This document shows positions 53,719-61,023 of a stretch of DNA of 64,000 nt, one piece after another. Origin of the DNA: Spirochaetes bacterium ADurb.BinA120 (GTDB taxonomy: Bacteria > Spirochaetota > UBA4802 > UBA5368); contig MVZN01000010.1 in NCBI GenBank assembly GCA_002069125.1, forward strand, positions 1 through 64,000, read 5' to 3'. Numbering within the stretch: the stretch's first letter is position 1; each line of letters begins with the position of its first letter. The notes beneath the pieces were generated by a model. That model was not told the origin of the DNA and did no database searches. It worked only from the letters and a program-made list of their open reading frames with translations. The position numbers and the translations under genes are program-made.

Positions 53719-54462
53719 CTATTTCTTCATGAAATGCGAGATGACATCCAGCGGAATCGGGAAGAGCGTTGTCGAGTTGTTCTCGGTAGCCACCTCCCTG
53801 AGCGTCTGCAGATAGCGAAGCTGCAGCGCGATGGGATGCGTCTCCATGAGGGAGGCCGCTTCGATGAGCTTCGCCGCCGCCTGAAATTCGCCCTCGGCGT
53901 TGATGACCTTCGCGCGGCGCTCGCGCTCCGCCTCCGCCTGCTTGGCCATTGCCCGCTGCATCTCCTGCGGAAGGTCCACGTGCTTCACCTCGACCGCCGT
54001 CACCTTTATGCCCCACGGATCGGTGTGCGCGTCGAGCACGTTCTGAAGCTCCGAGTTTATGCGCTCGCGGTCGCTCAAGAGGTCGTCGAGTTCGTTCATG
54101 CCCAGTATGCTGCGAAGCGTGGTTTGCGCGAGCTGGGACGTCGCGTACATGAAGTCCTCGACCTCGGTTACCGCCTTGTTGGGATCGATGACCCTGAAAT
54201 ACACGACCGCGTTCACCTTGACTGAAACGTTATCGCGGGTAATGATGTCCTGCGGCGGAACGTCCATAACCACAAGGCGAAGGCTGACCCGCACCCATTT
54301 ATCGATGAACGGTATGATGATGATGATACCGGGCCCCTTGTGCGTTTTTAAAAGCCTTCCAAGCCGGAACACGACCGCCCGCTCGTACTCCTTGACGACC
54401 TTGATCGAAGCGATGACCAGAAGCACCGCAAGTATCAGCAATGTTGGAAACATCTCGAACAT
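53719..54462 (-). CDS. slipin (SPFH/band 7 stomatin-like protein)
   Basis: 247 residues. One N-terminal membrane helix (about 5-22), then a band 7 domain ([68 protein letters not shown]) and a coiled coil with [18 protein letters not shown]. Slipins oligomerise in membranes, and their genes often sit with nfeD, as here (88 bases downstream of nfeD on the same strand). In Pyrococcus the NfeD protease cleaves the slipin. Role: membrane quality control, inferred. Confidence 0.92.
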
Positions 54463-54550
54463 CGTACACCTCCTGTGTGTCTTGTAATGTATAACTCCGG
54501 CGGATGGTCCGCGCCGCGGCCCCTCCGCGTTTCAGCCGCGGCGGGCTTCG

Positions 54551-55858
54551 CTAAAGCTTTCTTACGAAGAGGGTCATGCCCTTCGAACCGGTCACCGTCA
54601 CCCTGTCGTCGCGCTTTATCTCATCCTCCGAAACCGCGTTCCATATCTCGCCGTGGACGAACACCTTGCCCCCGGCCTTAAAATCGCGTATGGCCACGCC
54701 GGTTTCGCCTACCATCCCCTTCATGCCAGTGGTGACCTGGCCCCTGTGAGCAAGCACTACCGAGCGCACCACCACGAAGAAAAACGCCAGCAGAAACAAC
54801 ATCACGGCGATTATGGAGCGCATCGGAATCCGTCCGCCCGGCAGTGGCGAATCGAATAGGATCATGGAGCCGAAGATGAACGCGACTATCCCGCCAATGG
54901 TAAGCAGGCCATAGCTTGCAATCTTTAGCTCGAGTATGAAGAGCACGACCGCCAGGATGATGAGCGCGAGACCCGCAAGATTTATAGGAAGCACCCGAAC
55001 CGCCATGAGAAAGAGGAAGAGCGCGATGGCCCCCAGAACCCCCGGCACGATGAGCCCCGGGCTTTTAAACTCCATTCCGATGCCGGCCACCGCGATTATG
55101 AAGAGCAGAAACACCATCTGAGGGTCCGCGAAGTAATTGAGCATCTTCTCCTTCCAGTCCATTTCGAACGAAAGCGGCGCAACACCGGCCGTCGAGATGA
55201 CGACCACCGAACCGTTGACATCAACCCTTTTACCGTTTAGCTTTACGAGCAGGTCGTCCACGTCCTCGGCTATGATATCCACGATGCCGAGTCTGTGGGC
55301 CTCGAGATATGTGCTCGAAATGGCGTCGCGGATGGCGCGCACGGTCCAGTCGACGTTCCGCCTGCGCTTCTGCGCAAGGCTCTTGCCGTATGCTATGGTG
55401 TCGTTCAGCACCTTCTTTTCCATTATTCCGCCGGCCGGATTTCCCTGTTCGTCCTTCTGGCCGAAGTTCAGAAAGGGACTCACCGGATGCATGGCGCCGA
55501 TCTCGGTGCCCGGGGCCATGGCCGTAACGTGCGCGGCGAGCATGATGTATCCGCCCGCGGAGGCGGCCTGCGCCCCTTTCGGCGCGGTAAACACGACCAC
55601 CGGCGCTTCGGAGGAGAGGATGGACTTTATGATCTCTCGCATGGAGCCCATCAGTCCGCCCGGCGTGTCCATCTGTATGATGATGAAGCGCACATGGGCC
55701 TCGTTCGCTTTTTCTATCGATTTGACTACATGCTCGCCGATGATCGGGTTTACCGAGCCCTCGAGTTTTATGAGGGCGTAGCGGTCCGCCGCAAAAGACG
55801 GTGCGGCGAATGCCGTCGCAAAAAAAAGCGGCGCAATCCATGCTATGGCGGTTTTCAT
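54551..55858 (-). CDS. nfeD: NfeD-type membrane serine protease (long form)
   Basis: 435 residues. Signal peptide (about 1-23), a ClpP-class protease domain (about 25-225: QMDTPGGLMGSMRE, TAPKGAQAASAGGYIMLAAHV with the Ser of SAGG, and a later Lys), four to five transmembrane helices (about 245-370) and a C-terminal OB-fold NfeD domain (GMKGMVGETGVAI). This is the NfeD1b/1510-N long form, associated with slipin. The nearby promoter gives a leader of about 90 bases. Confidence 0.93.
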   Translation of the reverse strand: MKTAIAWIAPLFFATAFAAPSFAADRYALIKLEGSVNPIIGEHVVKSIEKANEAHVRFIIIQMDTPGGLMGSMREIIKSILSSEAPVVVFTAPKGAQAASAGGYIMLAAHVTAMAPGTEIGAMHPVSPFLNFGQKDEQGNPAGGIMEKKVLNDTIAYGKSLAQKRRRNVDWTVRAIRDAISSTYLEAHRLGIVDIIAEDVDDLLVKLNGKRVDVNGSVVVISTAGVAPLSFEMDWKEKMLNYFADPQMVFLLFIIAVAGIGMEFKSPGLIVPGVLGAIALFLFLMAVRVLPINLAGLALIILAVVLFILELKIASYGLLTIGGIVAFIFGSMILFDSPLPGGRIPMRSIIAVMLFLLAFFFVVVRSVVLAHRGQVTTGMKGMVGETGVAIRDFKAGGKVFVHGEIWNAVSEDEIKRDDRVTVTGSKGMTLFVRKL

Positions 55859-56244
55859 GATGTGTATCCTGTCTAAACGGTATCGCGGCGCCGGAAGCTC
55901 CTCGCCCGGCGAACGAACCGCATATTTTCCTCTCGAAAAGCCCCGTCAAGCCTGAATGTTACACATTTAAATGGGCGGTGTCAAGAAATAATGGCCCGGT
56001 CTAACCATGCCGTCGACGTTTTTATTCGGCCGGATTGCGTATAAACGGCGTCCATGCGGCCCCGAAATGGCCGATAATATCGATGATGGCGTGTAAATCG
56101 CGTTTCTTCCGGGCGGCCGCGTTCCGTTTCAGTGCGCCGTATAGGGTTTTTGTTACACGGATGCGCCGGTCCGCCTGTATGCGGGCGAATGTGCTTGCGC
56201 CCCGCACGGCCTCCGCATATAATCAGCCGGAAACGAGGGATAGC
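55859..56244. other. divergent intergenic region (nfeD / HEAT-repeat gene)
   Basis: 386 bases. It contains the nfeD promoter. A minus-strand frame at 56022-56207 (61 codons, starting MRGASTFARIQ) has an odd, protein-like end (IIDIIGHFGAAWTPFIRNP) but no ribosome binding site or recognised relative; it is left uncalled. The plus-strand side has GAGGGA before the HEAT gene. Confidence 0.5.
55956..55984 (-). promoter_or_regulatory. promoter of nfeD-slipin
   Basis: On the minus strand a perfect TTGACA (55984-55979) and TAACAT (55961-55956) with a 17-base spacer. A second TTGACG occurs about 30 bases closer to the gene but with a poor -10. Confidence 0.55.
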
Positions 56245-57417
56245 ATGAGAATTTCTTCCGTATGGATAAAAGCTCTGGTCCTTGTCGCCTTCATGGCGGC
56301 GGGACGGGGTGCGCCTTTGGCCCAGAAAGGGCCATCGAAGCCCGCGGCGGACAGGCCCGCAAAGGCTGTGGAGACTGCCGAGGAGAGGGAGCGAAAGCAA
56401 AAGGAAAAACAGGCCGAAAACGAGAAGAAGCGCGCCGAGTGGATAGAAAAAACCGTTCGTTTCGGCATCAACAAGGACCGCCGCGAGGCGATCAACATGA
56501 TACTCGGCATACGCGACGAATCGCTGAAAAACTCCCTGGGAGACCTGCTTATCGATGTCATACGAAACGAGACCGACCCGGAGGTAAAGGCCAGGGCGCT
56601 CACCGTGGCGGGCGACCTTAAAAACAGCCGGGCCGCTCCGGCCATGATGGAAGCGCTGGGCGACGACTCCGAGGACGTGCAGATCGCTGCGGTCAATTCG
56701 CTTAAAAACCTTCGGCACGAGCCGGCGCGGCAGGCCCTGGCCGAAAAGCTCAAGGCCCGCGACCTGTCGGCCGATTCGAACCTTACGGAAAGCCTCATCA
56801 CCGCGATGGGGGAATTCGGGGCGGAGGAGCTTGCCGGGTTCGCGAAAACGGCCATCAAGGACGTAAAGACCACCCGCACCATCCGCGGATCGCTGACCAT
56901 GTTCATGGGGCGGCTCGGCTCCGCCGCGCCAAGGGACTTCCTCGTCGAGCTTCTGAAAGACGAGGACGAGGACCGGGACGTGCGTGGATACGCGGCAAAC
57001 GCCCTGGCGAGGCTTGGAGCGAGGGAGGCCGCCAAGGACATCGACGCGGTGGTCGCAATAATCGAGTCCTATCCCTTCAAGAAGCGCAAGGAGTACTATA
57101 CGCTGTACATCTACTGTGTCGCGGCGATGGCGAAACTGGGCGACGAGAAGGCCTTCCCCCGCCTGATGGAAGCCCTTAAAAGCGACAACTCCATGGTGCG
57201 GCTTCGCGCCATACGACTCCTTAGGGACATGAAGGAACAAAGAACAATTGACATTTTAAAATACAAGCGCGACTATGACCCGAGTCCGGCGGTGCAAAAG
57301 GCCGCGCGCGAGGCCCTGGAGGAGATGGGGGTGCGCTCCGAGGAAGAAAAGACGCCGGGCGCGGCGCGAAGGCCCGAACGCGGAGAACCCGGCCCGGACG
57401 AGTCCTCCGAAAAATAA
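56245..57417 (+). CDS. exported HEAT-repeat protein
   Basis: 390 residues. Signal peptide (AFMAAGRGAPLA region), a highly charged coiled stretch (AEERERKQKEKQAENEKKRA), then HEAT-like repeats of about 31-37 residues (for example DPEVKARALTVAGDLKN, SEDVQIAAVNSLKNLRHE, DRDVRGYAANALARLG, NSMVRLRAIRLLRDM, SPAVQKAAREALEEMG) and a charged tail. A periplasmic scaffold by prediction. Start at 56245 with GAGGGA close upstream; a longer frame lacks a signal peptide. Followed after 14 bases by a small membrane protein gene. Confidence 0.83.
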   Translation: MRISSVWIKALVLVAFMAAGRGAPLAQKGPSKPAADRPAKAVETAEERERKQKEKQAENEKKRAEWIEKTVRFGINKDRREAINMILGIRDESLKNSLGDLLIDVIRNETDPEVKARALTVAGDLKNSRAAPAMMEALGDDSEDVQIAAVNSLKNLRHEPARQALAEKLKARDLSADSNLTESLITAMGEFGAEELAGFAKTAIKDVKTTRTIRGSLTMFMGRLGSAAPRDFLVELLKDEDEDRDVRGYAANALARLGAREAAKDIDAVVAIIESYPFKKRKEYYTLYIYCVAAMAKLGDEKAFPRLMEALKSDNSMVRLRAIRLLRDMKEQRTIDILKYKRDYDPSPAVQKAAREALEEMGVRSEEEKTPGAARRPERGEPGPDESSEK

Positions 57418-57431
57418 AACGGGAAACAACC

Positions 57432-57845
57432 ATGCGCAGCGCGACCCTTTTCGAAAAAAACCGTATTGTCGACAGGCTGAAGTCGGTGATGATTCTCTGC
57501 GCCTTTATCGCCGCCTCGGCGCTCGCCTCCGCTTTTCTGATGGATCTAATCGTTGCTCCGATAGCGCTTCTTGCCGTCGGCAACAGGGAGCTCTTCAATA
57601 TCATCGTAGCCTGGGCGGTGCGCCTGGGGTTAACAGGCGCGCTCATATATCTCTTCGTTCGAAGGATATGCGCCATGCGCCAAGACGGCCACTCGGGCGG
57701 CAGTGTGGCGCTGTATATGTGCGCCAGGCCCCTGCGGGCGGCCGGGCTGGTCCTTTCCCTGATGGCGGTTTCTACAGCGGTGATCGCGCTCATCTATCTT
57801 TTGTTCAGCTATAACTACTATTTTATATACAAAATCTCTAACTGA
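57432..57845 (+). CDS. small membrane protein of unknown function
   Basis: 137 residues with about three to four hydrophobic segments (about 20-45, 47-80, 100-130). No family recognised. GGGAAACA before the start is a weak ribosome binding site. It sits in line between the HEAT gene and the AXE1-fold gene (14-base gaps on both sides), so an operon is likely. Confidence 0.7.
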   Translation: MRSATLFEKNRIVDRLKSVMILCAFIAASALASAFLMDLIVAPIALLAVGNRELFNIIVAWAVRLGLTGALIYLFVRRICAMRQDGHSGGSVALYMCARPLRAAGLVLSLMAVSTAVIALIYLLFSYNYYFIYKISN

Positions 57846-57859
57846 CCGGACTCCGAGCA

Positions 57860-58792
57860 ATGCCTGTAACGGGCGATTTCGACCGCTTCTTCCCGCACCT
57901 GCCACCCTTCGACCGGCAGGAGGATTTCGACGCCTTCTGGAAGGGTTCCATTTCCGAGTTAAGGAAGATTCCCATGGAACCTTCGTTCACCCCGATCAAT
58001 TCCCCGCGCTCTCCGTTCAACCGTTTCGAGGTGACGTTCAGGGGGATGTTCCGCTCGACGTTGACCGGAAGCCTGCTGGTCCCAGCCGGAAGACGAAAGG
58101 CCAGGGCGGTCATCATCATCCACGATTACAACAGGCCCGATCCCTATGCCGGGTATCCGCTTGACGAAAAGGCCGCCTACTTCTTCCTGCGCCTGCGCGG
58201 CCACGGAGAGACGTCCGGCGCCTTGACCGAAAAAAGCCCGGGCTATTTGGTCGATTCCATCACCGACATTTATGGCTATTATATGCGCGGAGTGTACCTT
58301 GACGCCTACCGCGCCATCGACGTTTTACGATTGAACGACCGTCTGGACTGCGGCGCGATGGGCCTCATGGGAAAGGGCATGGGAGCCGCGGCCGCGCTCT
58401 TCGCCGCGGCCAATACGGGCCGTCCGACCGCCCTTGTGCTCGACACACCCTCGTTCGCCCACCTCGGCGAGAGCCAGAACATCTCCACCAGCGAGGCTAC
58501 CGCCGAGATAAACGAATACCTTTCGCTTCAAAGGGCCAGGAAAAGGCTCGTCAAAAAAAACCTTTCCTATTTCGACGCAATCAATTTCGCCGACCGCATC
58601 ACCGGTCCGACGCTCGCGACCGTCGGATTTAAGGACACCGAATCGCCGCCGCAGTGCGTCTTCGCCCTCTTCAATCACCTGAAATGCGACAAGACGATCG
58701 AGGTTTATCCGGACGACGGAAACGACGCCGGCGGCGCCGCGCAGTTCGAAAAATCCGTTCGCTGGATGGTGGAAACGCTTGAATCACTTTAA
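57860..58792 (+). CDS. AXE1-family alpha/beta hydrolase lacking nucleophile and histidine
   Basis: 310 residues matching acetyl-xylan esterase/cephalosporin-C deacetylase (AXE1) proteins throughout: RLRGHGETSG, DAYRAIDVLRL, YFDAINFADRI and VGFKDTESPPQCVFALFN. The nucleophile elbow, GxSxGG in active members, reads GKGMG (171-175), with Gly173 in the serine position. The catalytic Asp259 remains, but the histidine loop reads YPDDGNDAGG, with Asn288 where YxxxGHE has His. No esterase activity is expected unless another residue substitutes. Last gene of the HEAT-membrane-AXE1 group; no carbohydrate genes nearby. A binding or regulatory role is possible. Confidence 0.85.
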   Translation: MPVTGDFDRFFPHLPPFDRQEDFDAFWKGSISELRKIPMEPSFTPINSPRSPFNRFEVTFRGMFRSTLTGSLLVPAGRRKARAVIIIHDYNRPDPYAGYPLDEKAAYFFLRLRGHGETSGALTEKSPGYLVDSITDIYGYYMRGVYLDAYRAIDVLRLNDRLDCGAMGLMGKGMGAAAALFAAANTGRPTALVLDTPSFAHLGESQNISTSEATAEINEYLSLQRARKRLVKKNLSYFDAINFADRITGPTLATVGFKDTESPPQCVFALFNHLKCDKTIEVYPDDGNDAGGAAQFEKSVRWMVETLESL

Positions 58793-58977: not shown

Positions 58978-61023
58978 TCAGGGGACAAAATACCCGCCCC
59001 ACTCCGTGCCCTTCTGGCCGCGGTAGTCGACCTCTATGCGGACGTCGGACCACCAGCCTTTAAGGGCGGGCGACTTGAACGTGGAATAGACCACGACATA
59101 GCGGTACTCCTCGCCGTTACGGATGCGGTCGTATATGCCTCTCAGGCCGTCCATCTCGCGGGTTGCGTATATCGACCCGCCCGTTGCCGCGGCGATACGG
59201 GAGAGAGAGGGGTCCTTCGCGCCGAGGCTGATGATGAAAACCGGAACGTGATGGCTTTTCGCGTAATCTATTACGACCTTCTCCGAATAGCGGGCAAACG
59301 AGCCATCGGCCTCGCGGCCGTCGGTAACGAGGATTACGCCGCGGCGGTTCACTTTCGGCGCGACGTCGGAGATGGCGTTGTAGAGCGCCTTTCCGATGTC
59401 CCTGCCCTCACCGTAGGAGCGCTCCTTGAGTGCCCTGAGGGCCCTCCGGCGGCTCCAGTCGAAGTCGTTCTCGGTGCGGTAATCATCGTTGAAGCCGGCC
59501 ACCTTGAGCGAATCGTTTTTCCGCATCTTCTTTAAAATGAACTCGGCGACCCATGGTATGTCGTTGTGGTAAGCGCCCATGGCGCGGGAGCGGTCCACGC
59601 ACAGCACCATGGCTGCCGAGGGCGCCCTGTCCCTGAGGTAATCGACGTAGATGCCGGACGGACGGGCGCCGTCCTCCACGACGGAGAAGTTGTCCCGCGT
59701 CAGTCCGTACAGGGGCCTTCCCGACCGGTCGCGTACGTTCAAATAAAGCGCCACTACCGGAAATTTGCGCGTATCGATCGAGGCTATCTCGAGGTCGTAA
59801 TTCGAGTAGCGCCGCTCCAGCGGCGAGAAGATGAAAAGGCTCTCCTGAAGATAGTCCAGACAGTACAGAAACCCGTCGCGGTCGAAGAGCCCTGCGTACG
59901 ACCGGCGAAACGAGCGTTTGCCCCCATCCCAGGAGGAGAAGGCTGCCGCGTTTTTATTGGCTATGTCGTAGAAAATCAGCCCCCTTTTCTCGTCGGCAAG
60001 CACGAGCGACGAACCGTGAAGCGTTACGCCTCTCGGCCGTTCGCTGCCCTCCACGGAGAGGTTCTCCAGGAAGTTGCCGGAATCGTCGAAAACGGCCACT
60101 CTGTTGTTCCCCGTGTCGGCAACGTACACCCGCTCCCTGTCCGCCGCGCAATCCGAGGGCTTGTCGAGCTCTCCCTCGTATTTGCCCTGCCTGCCGAAGG
60201 AAAGTATAAACTTCCCGTCACCGTCGAACTTCTGCACCCTGTGGTTTCCCGAATCGACCACGTAAAGGCGCCCTGCGGGGTCGAAGCACACCCCCTGCGG
60301 GCCGTGAAACAGCCCCTCGCCGCTTCCCGCCGAGCCGAAGGTCTTAAGTATCTTCAACGACTCGTTCATGAGGTATACGCAGTCGCGTCCGAAATCGGTG
60401 ACGGCTATCCTGCCTCCGAAGTGGTCGATTCCGTACAGCCTGCTCTCCAGAGACGGAGAGAAGGAGTCTATCCCCTGCCTGTTCGGATCGATCTTGACGA
60501 GCTTTCCCGAGGAGAAGGAGGTGATGTAGGCGTTGCGCCCGGCGTCCACCGCGACGTCAACGGGATTCGGAAAGCGGAAGCGCTTCATTCCGGCCGAGGC
60601 GTACTCGTCGGCCAGGACGAACTCCCCGGAGCGTCCCGGCGCGAAGAGCCCTCCTTCGCGGAAGCGGATGGCGTCTATTTTAGCCCGGACCGGCGCGTTG
60701 TCGGGCGACTCTTCGGCCAGGGTTTCCCATTCGCCCAGAGCCTCCTCGGTGAAGCCCGCCAGGCGGTACGATCGAGCCAGGTATTCGCGAGCCGTATAGT
60801 AATCGGGATGGATGGAGAGCGCCCTGCGAAAGAACTCGACCGAGGCGAGATAGCGCATATTGTTGAAATGAATCATTCCCTGGCGGAACTCTTCCTTGGC
60901 GCGCTCGAAACGCGCCAGGTCGCGCGATTGGGCCGCGGACGGGGCCCCGGAGAGGAGGACAAGGACGGCCGCGGCCGCCGCCGCAAGACGCGCCGGGATG
61001 GTCGTGCCGAAAGGCATGCTCAT
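58978..61023 (-). CDS. exported TPR-NHL-VWA protein
   Basis: 681 residues. Signal peptide (AAAAAAVLVLLSGAPSAAQ), TPR-like helices (about 35-110), NHL propeller repeats (about 140-400; FHGPQGVCFDPAGRLYVVDS, ELDKPSDCAADRERVYVADT), then a VWA domain (about 460-660). The VWA metal site reads VDRSRAMG instead of DxSxS, though the later VTDGREADGS aspartate is kept, so metal binding may be weakened. Resembles large spirochaetal or myxobacterial periplasmic proteins. Convergent with the AXE1 gene and located downstream of uvrA on the same strand. Confidence 0.85.
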   Translation of the reverse strand: MSMPFGTTIPARLAAAAAAVLVLLSGAPSAAQSRDLARFERAKEEFRQGMIHFNNMRYLASVEFFRRALSIHPDYYTAREYLARSYRLAGFTEEALGEWETLAEESPDNAPVRAKIDAIRFREGGLFAPGRSGEFVLADEYASAGMKRFRFPNPVDVAVDAGRNAYITSFSSGKLVKIDPNRQGIDSFSPSLESRLYGIDHFGGRIAVTDFGRDCVYLMNESLKILKTFGSAGSGEGLFHGPQGVCFDPAGRLYVVDSGNHRVQKFDGDGKFILSFGRQGKYEGELDKPSDCAADRERVYVADTGNNRVAVFDDSGNFLENLSVEGSERPRGVTLHGSSLVLADEKRGLIFYDIANKNAAAFSSWDGGKRSFRRSYAGLFDRDGFLYCLDYLQESLFIFSPLERRYSNYDLEIASIDTRKFPVVALYLNVRDRSGRPLYGLTRDNFSVVEDGARPSGIYVDYLRDRAPSAAMVLCVDRSRAMGAYHNDIPWVAEFILKKMRKNDSLKVAGFNDDYRTENDFDWSRRRALRALKERSYGEGRDIGKALYNAISDVAPKVNRRGVILVTDGREADGSFARYSEKVVIDYAKSHHVPVFIISLGAKDPSLSRIAAATGGSIYATREMDGLRGIYDRIRNGEEYRYVVVYSTFKSPALKGWWSDVRIEVDYRGQKGTEWGGYFVP

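Follow-up and report, generated by a model that had tools for sequence, protein, structure and literature searches.

The gene and its neighborhood

The window, i.e., the whole stretch of 64,000 nucleotides that was analyzed, harbors at 57860..58792 on the plus strand a gene for a pseudo-esterase with the AXE1/CE7 fold, which encodes 310 amino acids from ATG to stop. No hydrophobic segment was found in this AXE1-like protein at the threshold used. The Pfam family AXE1 (PF05448) matches residues 19–304 with 157.2 bits (E 5.7e-46), which is above the curated cut-off of 21 bits, and in a comparison with acetyl xylan esterases and cephalosporin C deacetylases of solved structure the best E-value was 5e-39. 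With NCBIfam, only partial matches were obtained for six proteins, all far under the cut-off (the best 36.7 vs. 400 bits).

The protein was modeled as a monomer with AlphaFold2, using as input the protein itself and 15 proteins from related loci. The model displays a pLDDT of 85.7 and a pTM of 0.89, with residues 117–125 below a pLDDT of 50. The cephalosporin C deacetylase from B. subtilis (1L7A) could be aligned to the model over 295 residues at 2.3 Å with a Z-score of 37.1. Furthermore, the best 34 Foldseek rows have query TM-scores of 0.84–0.88, and every title among the best 48 rows is acetyl xylan esterase, acetyl esterase or cephalosporin C deacetylase. The strong AXE1 family match that the earlier note had reported for this open reading frame is borne out by these scores, and the structure prediction that it had proposed as a check recovers the CE7 fold. 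With the CE7/AXE1 esterases, for example CAH from B. subtilis (1L7A/1ODS), TM0077 from T. maritima (1VLQ) and AXE from B. pumilus (2XLB), the protein shares the whole fold including the N-terminal extension, the L-S-Y-F-D and Y-Y-x-R motifs as well as the Asp of the catalytic triad. According to one report, CE7 esterases form a donut-shaped hexamer with the active sites in a tunnel (PMC6209228).

Two genes precede the AXE1-like gene. At 57432..57845 (+), 14 bases upstream of it, lies a gene for a membrane protein of 137 amino acids with three hydrophobic segments on the Kyte-Doolittle scale, for which Pfam gave no match at E 1. It is itself preceded, again at a distance of 14 bases, by a gene for a HEAT-repeat protein (56245..57417, +). 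As listed (56035-57417), the open reading frame of the latter seems over-long, and the ATG at 56245 is the more likely start compared to the TTG at 56035, which would provide the HEAT protein with a signal-peptide-like N-terminus. That the AXE1-like gene stands in line with HEAT and membrane genes had been noticed before, and this arrangement is real and kept: of 36 loci from the window's order, 35 have both genes upstream in the same orientation, and the remaining one runs off the end of its contig. An N-terminal hydrophobic stretch is present in the HEAT open reading frames of 30 of 35 order loci; it is not clear in L033, L051, L164 and L165, and for L168 the N-terminus is doubtful since the start of the open reading frame is over-extended.

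A profile of the membrane protein matches the same 43 genomes of the order that contain the AXE1-like gene and misses the same three. By profile coordinates, the two genes are 16–96 bases apart in 42 of these 43, and in the remaining genome (G042) the pair is located on two contigs. Elsewhere in the phylum, the membrane-protein profile yielded eight weak matches of doubtful meaning (E 1.6e-6 to 6.9e-4). Convergent with the AXE1-like gene, 58978-61023 (-) encodes a protein that starts with a hydrophobic stretch and contains NHL repeats and a VWA domain as well as weak TPR matches; many order loci encode a relative of it downstream. Further upstream, Band 7 (SPFH) and NfeD genes identified by Pfam form an ordinary membrane pair (53719-55858, -).

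Loss of the catalytic serine within Spirochaetota

In 1L7A the triad consists of Ser181, Asp269 and His298, as counted along the alignment. The nucleophile Ser, located in the motif G-G-S-Q-G, aligns with Gly173, the Asp with Asp259 and the His with Asn288, and the residue numbers previously assigned to the two replaced positions and to the retained Asp are right. The codons of Lys172 and Gly173 (58373..58378, +) give the nucleophile elbow the sequence G-K-G-x-G in place of G-G-S-Q-G; the alignment places the retained catalytic acid at 58634..58636 (+) and the position of the catalytic His, now Asn, at 58721..58723 (+). The Gln after the nucleophile, which has an oxyanion role in CE7 enzymes, is Met174 here, and a Gly of the oxyanion loop is replaced by Asp. 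Thus, the protein displays the fold and the catalytic Asp of a CE7 esterase and lacks the Ser of G-x-S-Q-G, the Gln next to it and the His. Judged by these residues, esterase activity would not be expected.

In a scan of near relatives, 47 of 59 match, and the family profile matches 129 of the 392 genomes of the phylum at an E-value of 1e-10. Loci were read from 107 of these 129 genomes, namely the 43 in the window's order and 64 of the 86 others; the triads of the other 22 (all ≤ 153 bits), whose loci were not fetched, are outside the counts given here. Within the order, the gene is present in 43 of 46 genomes, each with Gly at the nucleophile position, and the three genomes without it are 73, 71 and 66% complete. 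Members of the same clade were found in 38 further genomes (f11, 2; f34, 18; f22, 13; f38, 2; f41, 2; f46, 1), which results in a total of 81 Spirochaetota genomes. The seven further clade members that were compared with Pfam AXE1 all match it with 91–173 bits.

None of the 78 near-full-length clade rows contains the full triad. In 77 of them the Ser is missing and the position is Gly, 10 of these rows having both Asp and His; the remaining one has Ser and Asp and lacks the His. All 45 canonical rows, which originate from Spirochaetota and other phyla, contain both Ser and His. A full triad in relatives at the same position was regarded by the earlier note as the sign of a mutation in a single genome. 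It was looked for and is absent from all 78 clade rows, and the loss of the Ser is common to the relatives in the same HEAT and membrane-gene position; the triad loss is not a single-genome mutation. Of the idea that relatives share both changes, the part on Ser to Gly stands (80 of 81 genomes), and the part on the His holds for some of the relatives. At position 288, 30 of the 42 near-full-length order rows have Asn, 9 have His, 2 have Glu and 1 has Tyr, and outside the order the catalytic His is found in 1 of 36 clade rows. Within the order, Gly at the nucleophile position is invariant (42/42). The loss of the Ser is the fixed trait of the clade, and that of the His is patchy. Of the 42 order rows, 40 retain Asp259, as do 23 of 36 rows elsewhere in the clade. 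In two order rows, L035 and L040 (f3), it is replaced by Ser and Ala, respectively, together with Glu at the His position, so that all three triad positions are gone.

The history of this loss was addressed with a tree of 123 rows. This tree and the counts of 78 and 45 rows leave out L049–L051, which by length are on the same contigs as L002, L005 and L004, and the fragments L043, L134, L150 and L069. The first three fragments all read G-x-G-x-G, and their placement in the clade is by profile and motif rather than by tree. All rows without Ser, together with the row L044, are on one side of a branch with an SH-aLRT support of 99 in this tree, in which long branches meet near the base of the clade. 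In a second tree of 112 rows, from which 12 motif columns as well as 11 distant or long rows (L052, L058, L061–L067, L126 and L153) were removed, L126 being a clade member, the corresponding branch has a support of 100; the distant rows flagged for the long branches of the first tree were among those taken out. The clade and the canonical group were defined after the motif had been seen, and the second tree, built without these columns, divides the rows in the same way. This suggests that the Ser was probably lost once and long ago, at the root of a Spirochaetota clade or close to it.

L044 (5001-5918, -, in genome G049) is the row that retains a Ser. Its elbow reads G-K-S-L-G, the Asp is kept and Asn occupies the His position; the Ser codon TCT is two steps away from any Gly codon. 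Holding the Gly rows together without L044 was not rejected (p-AU 0.242), and L044 may represent an intermediate or a reversal. L101, which belongs to the same family, has G-K-G-L-G with both Asp and His, and in this family the gene is present in just two of eight genomes. For other phyla than Spirochaetota, the analysis covered one pattern-based search with the window protein, a method restricted to close relatives; it yielded 22 loci, and the Ser is present in the 18 non-spirochaete loci (fragment L069 aside).

In comparison to three close relatives, dN/dS amounts to 0.079/0.547, 0.141/1.473 and 0.140/1.187, i.e., about 0.15, 0.10 and 0.12, dS being near saturation (1.2–1.5) in two of the three comparisons. 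The gene is under purifying selection within the genus. The matches in the 43 order genomes are all free of internal stops; in G042, close to the end of a contig, the gene is divided over two frames. Furthermore, the nucleophile site does not drift, since all 80 Ser-less genomes read have Gly. The protein thus qualifies as a pseudoenzyme, i.e., a homologue of an enzyme that has lost catalytic residues and whose gene is kept under selection, as measured within the genus.

A duplicate that covers for an active copy was considered and rejected. In the window's own genome, a second match to the AXE1-like protein was not found at E-values up to 10, and no second copy of this clade was seen in the 43 order genomes. 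One of the 46 genomes of the order (G009) carries a second copy of another kind, L048, a canonical AXE1 with Ser and His alongside the Ser-less L040, so both forms can coexist.

Residues around the former active site

The Gln next to the nucleophile, present in 44 of 45 canonical rows, is found in none of the 78 clade rows. Other positions nearby have become fixed. By coordinates computed from the start of the open reading frame, the codons of Asp89 and Tyr90 in the oxyanion loop are at 58124..58129 (+); that of His115, which follows the next strand, is at 58202..58204 (+). Asp89 is present in 78 of 78 clade rows vs. 0 of 45 canonical rows, of which 36 have Gly. Tyr90 is equally invariant in the clade (78/78) and also occurs in 34 canonical rows, and His115 is found in all 42 order rows, in 25 of 36 other clade rows and in 9 of 45 canonical rows (Gln in 35), hence it is not unique to the clade. 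This leaves Asp89 as the only residue that is both universal and new. Lys172 is present in 39 of 42 order rows, and the commonest residue there in canonical rows is Gly (22/45). Outside the order, Lys172 gives way to Arg, Gln, Ile, Thr and others. Asp89 throughout the clade and Lys172 in most of the order are fixed beside a dead site.

In the model, Asp89, Tyr90, His115, Lys172 and Asp259 are at or just after the ends of the strands 81–87, 105–111, 162–173 and 251–256. Judged by topology, these strand ends would lie on the usual active-site face of this fold. The enzyme may instead have been neofunctionalized, with a rebuilt site made of these five residues that catalyzes a Ser-independent lyase, isomerase or cofactor-free reaction. 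The invariant Asp89 and Tyr90 and, within the order, the nearly constant Lys172 and His115 would fit to this, as does their position in the model. However, residues that work together in catalysis should be fixed, whereas outside the order Lys172 varies and 11 of 36 clade rows have lost His115; this speaks for a pocket rebuilt for binding rather than for a new catalytic set common to the clade. A new enzyme is therefore considered unlikely. Some residual or altered chemistry is conceivable, since 9 of 42 order rows combine Asp with His and L044 combines Ser with Asp.

Possible roles of the protein

Since the loss of the Ser is common to relatives across many spirochaetes, the gene has most likely been kept for another job. 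The explanation favored here, at a probability of roughly 0.6, is that of an old and fixed pseudo-esterase working by binding, which in this genome is probably the cytoplasmic subunit of an envelope module. An α/β-hydrolase of the CE7/AXE1 type would have lost its catalytic Ser near the base of the clade and would have been kept in a non-hydrolytic role. The protein would stay in the cytoplasm, where its old active-site pocket may bind a small ligand or a partner. In the window's order, the small protein of the inner membrane and the exported HEAT protein would be the other parts, and binding in the pocket, with no turnover, would probably alter the docking of the AXE1-like protein on the membrane protein. 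Other lineages of the clade would use the same binding function with different partners.

The role as a partner in such a module is suggested by gene order, which is no proof of a complex, and the co-occurrence of adjacent genes does not count as independent evidence for it. HEAT and membrane neighbors were found in none of the 38 loci of the other lineages within the flanks fetched. Being limited to one order, these partners cannot explain the conservation throughout the clade. A more specific version can only be put forward tentatively: a pseudo-esterase family seen here in Spirochaetota only, whose signatures are D-Y in the oxyanion loop and G-x-G-x-G at the elbow, would have turned into a ligand-binding subunit. 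In the window's order it would be the cytoplasmic part of an envelope complex that extends through the inner membrane to the periplasm and further consists of the small membrane protein and the exported HEAT protein.

Alternatively, the protein might act on its own as a ligand sensor or housekeeping scaffold, the neighbors being merely co-transcribed without a physical complex. This would be in line with the gene neighbors, named by eye from their sequences, which differ between the lineages of the clade: cNMP-binding, S18-like and SucAB proteins in most f34 loci, CoaE, SPOR and OTCase in several loci of f22, f38 and f41, and FolD and CysS in f11. Nevertheless, in the window's order all 43 genomes with the AXE1-like gene also have the membrane gene, and 35 of the 36 loci read have the HEAT gene as well, across seven families, which makes a stand-alone protein quite improbable there.

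An esterase that still works via a displaced nucleophile or a water molecule is very improbable. The 10 clade rows with Asp and His and the Ser of L044 would agree with it. However, no column of the 78 clade rows reaches 90% Ser, Thr or Cys; only three exceed 70%, i.e., 164, 209 and 276 with 65, 61 and 61 of 78, and the Gln beside the nucleophile is gone from all 78 rows. Nucleophile mutants of the S181A type are inactive. Structures of such S181A mutants have been solved (3fyt). Finally, a decaying pseudogene or an assembly error, to which the missing residues and the split gene of G042 might point, is ruled out for practical purposes, since the order matches contain no internal stop, dN/dS is low (0.10–0.15) and the same Gly is shared by independent assemblies (43 of 46 order genomes).

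Binding proteins derived from this fold are not without precedent. The plant gibberellin receptor GID1 and the animal neuroligins and NDRG proteins are former hydrolases that became receptors or adhesion scaffolds. These are eukaryotic and belong to other branches of the fold. Inactive α/β-hydrolases are a known kind, and families that are inactive or lack the triad include DUF3530, the Arb2 domain of histone deacetylases and PF05095, as described in one study (PMC11878206). According to the same study, DUF3530, which is a separate family, has a conserved neighborhood with an envelope-assembly gene, similar to the kept neighborhood of the AXE1-like gene (PMC11878206). In the main text of this source, the term AXE1 does not occur and acetyl xylan esterases are mentioned once, with regard to overlapping clusters. 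The literature covered by the search yielded no account of a Ser-less AXE1/CE7 clade that is fixed in several families of spirochaetes.

Since two of the three CE7 catalytic residues are lost, acetyl xylan esterase would be the wrong annotation for the AXE1-like protein. This is the label that the Pfam match would assign to a gene which 43 of the 46 order genomes have kept, although a residue required for the mechanism is absent, and counts of carbohydrate enzymes for these bacteria could be wrong as a result. If the module indeed exists, it would be an unstudied component of the spirochaete envelope and would clearly exemplify how an esterase fold became a binding protein, one relative (L044) still having the Ser.

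Outside the window's order, a divergent pair of cNMP-binding-like genes (named by eye) adjoins the AXE1-like gene in most f34 loci, for example at L123:4060-4917 (-). Judged by these names, a link to signalling is possible in this lineage.
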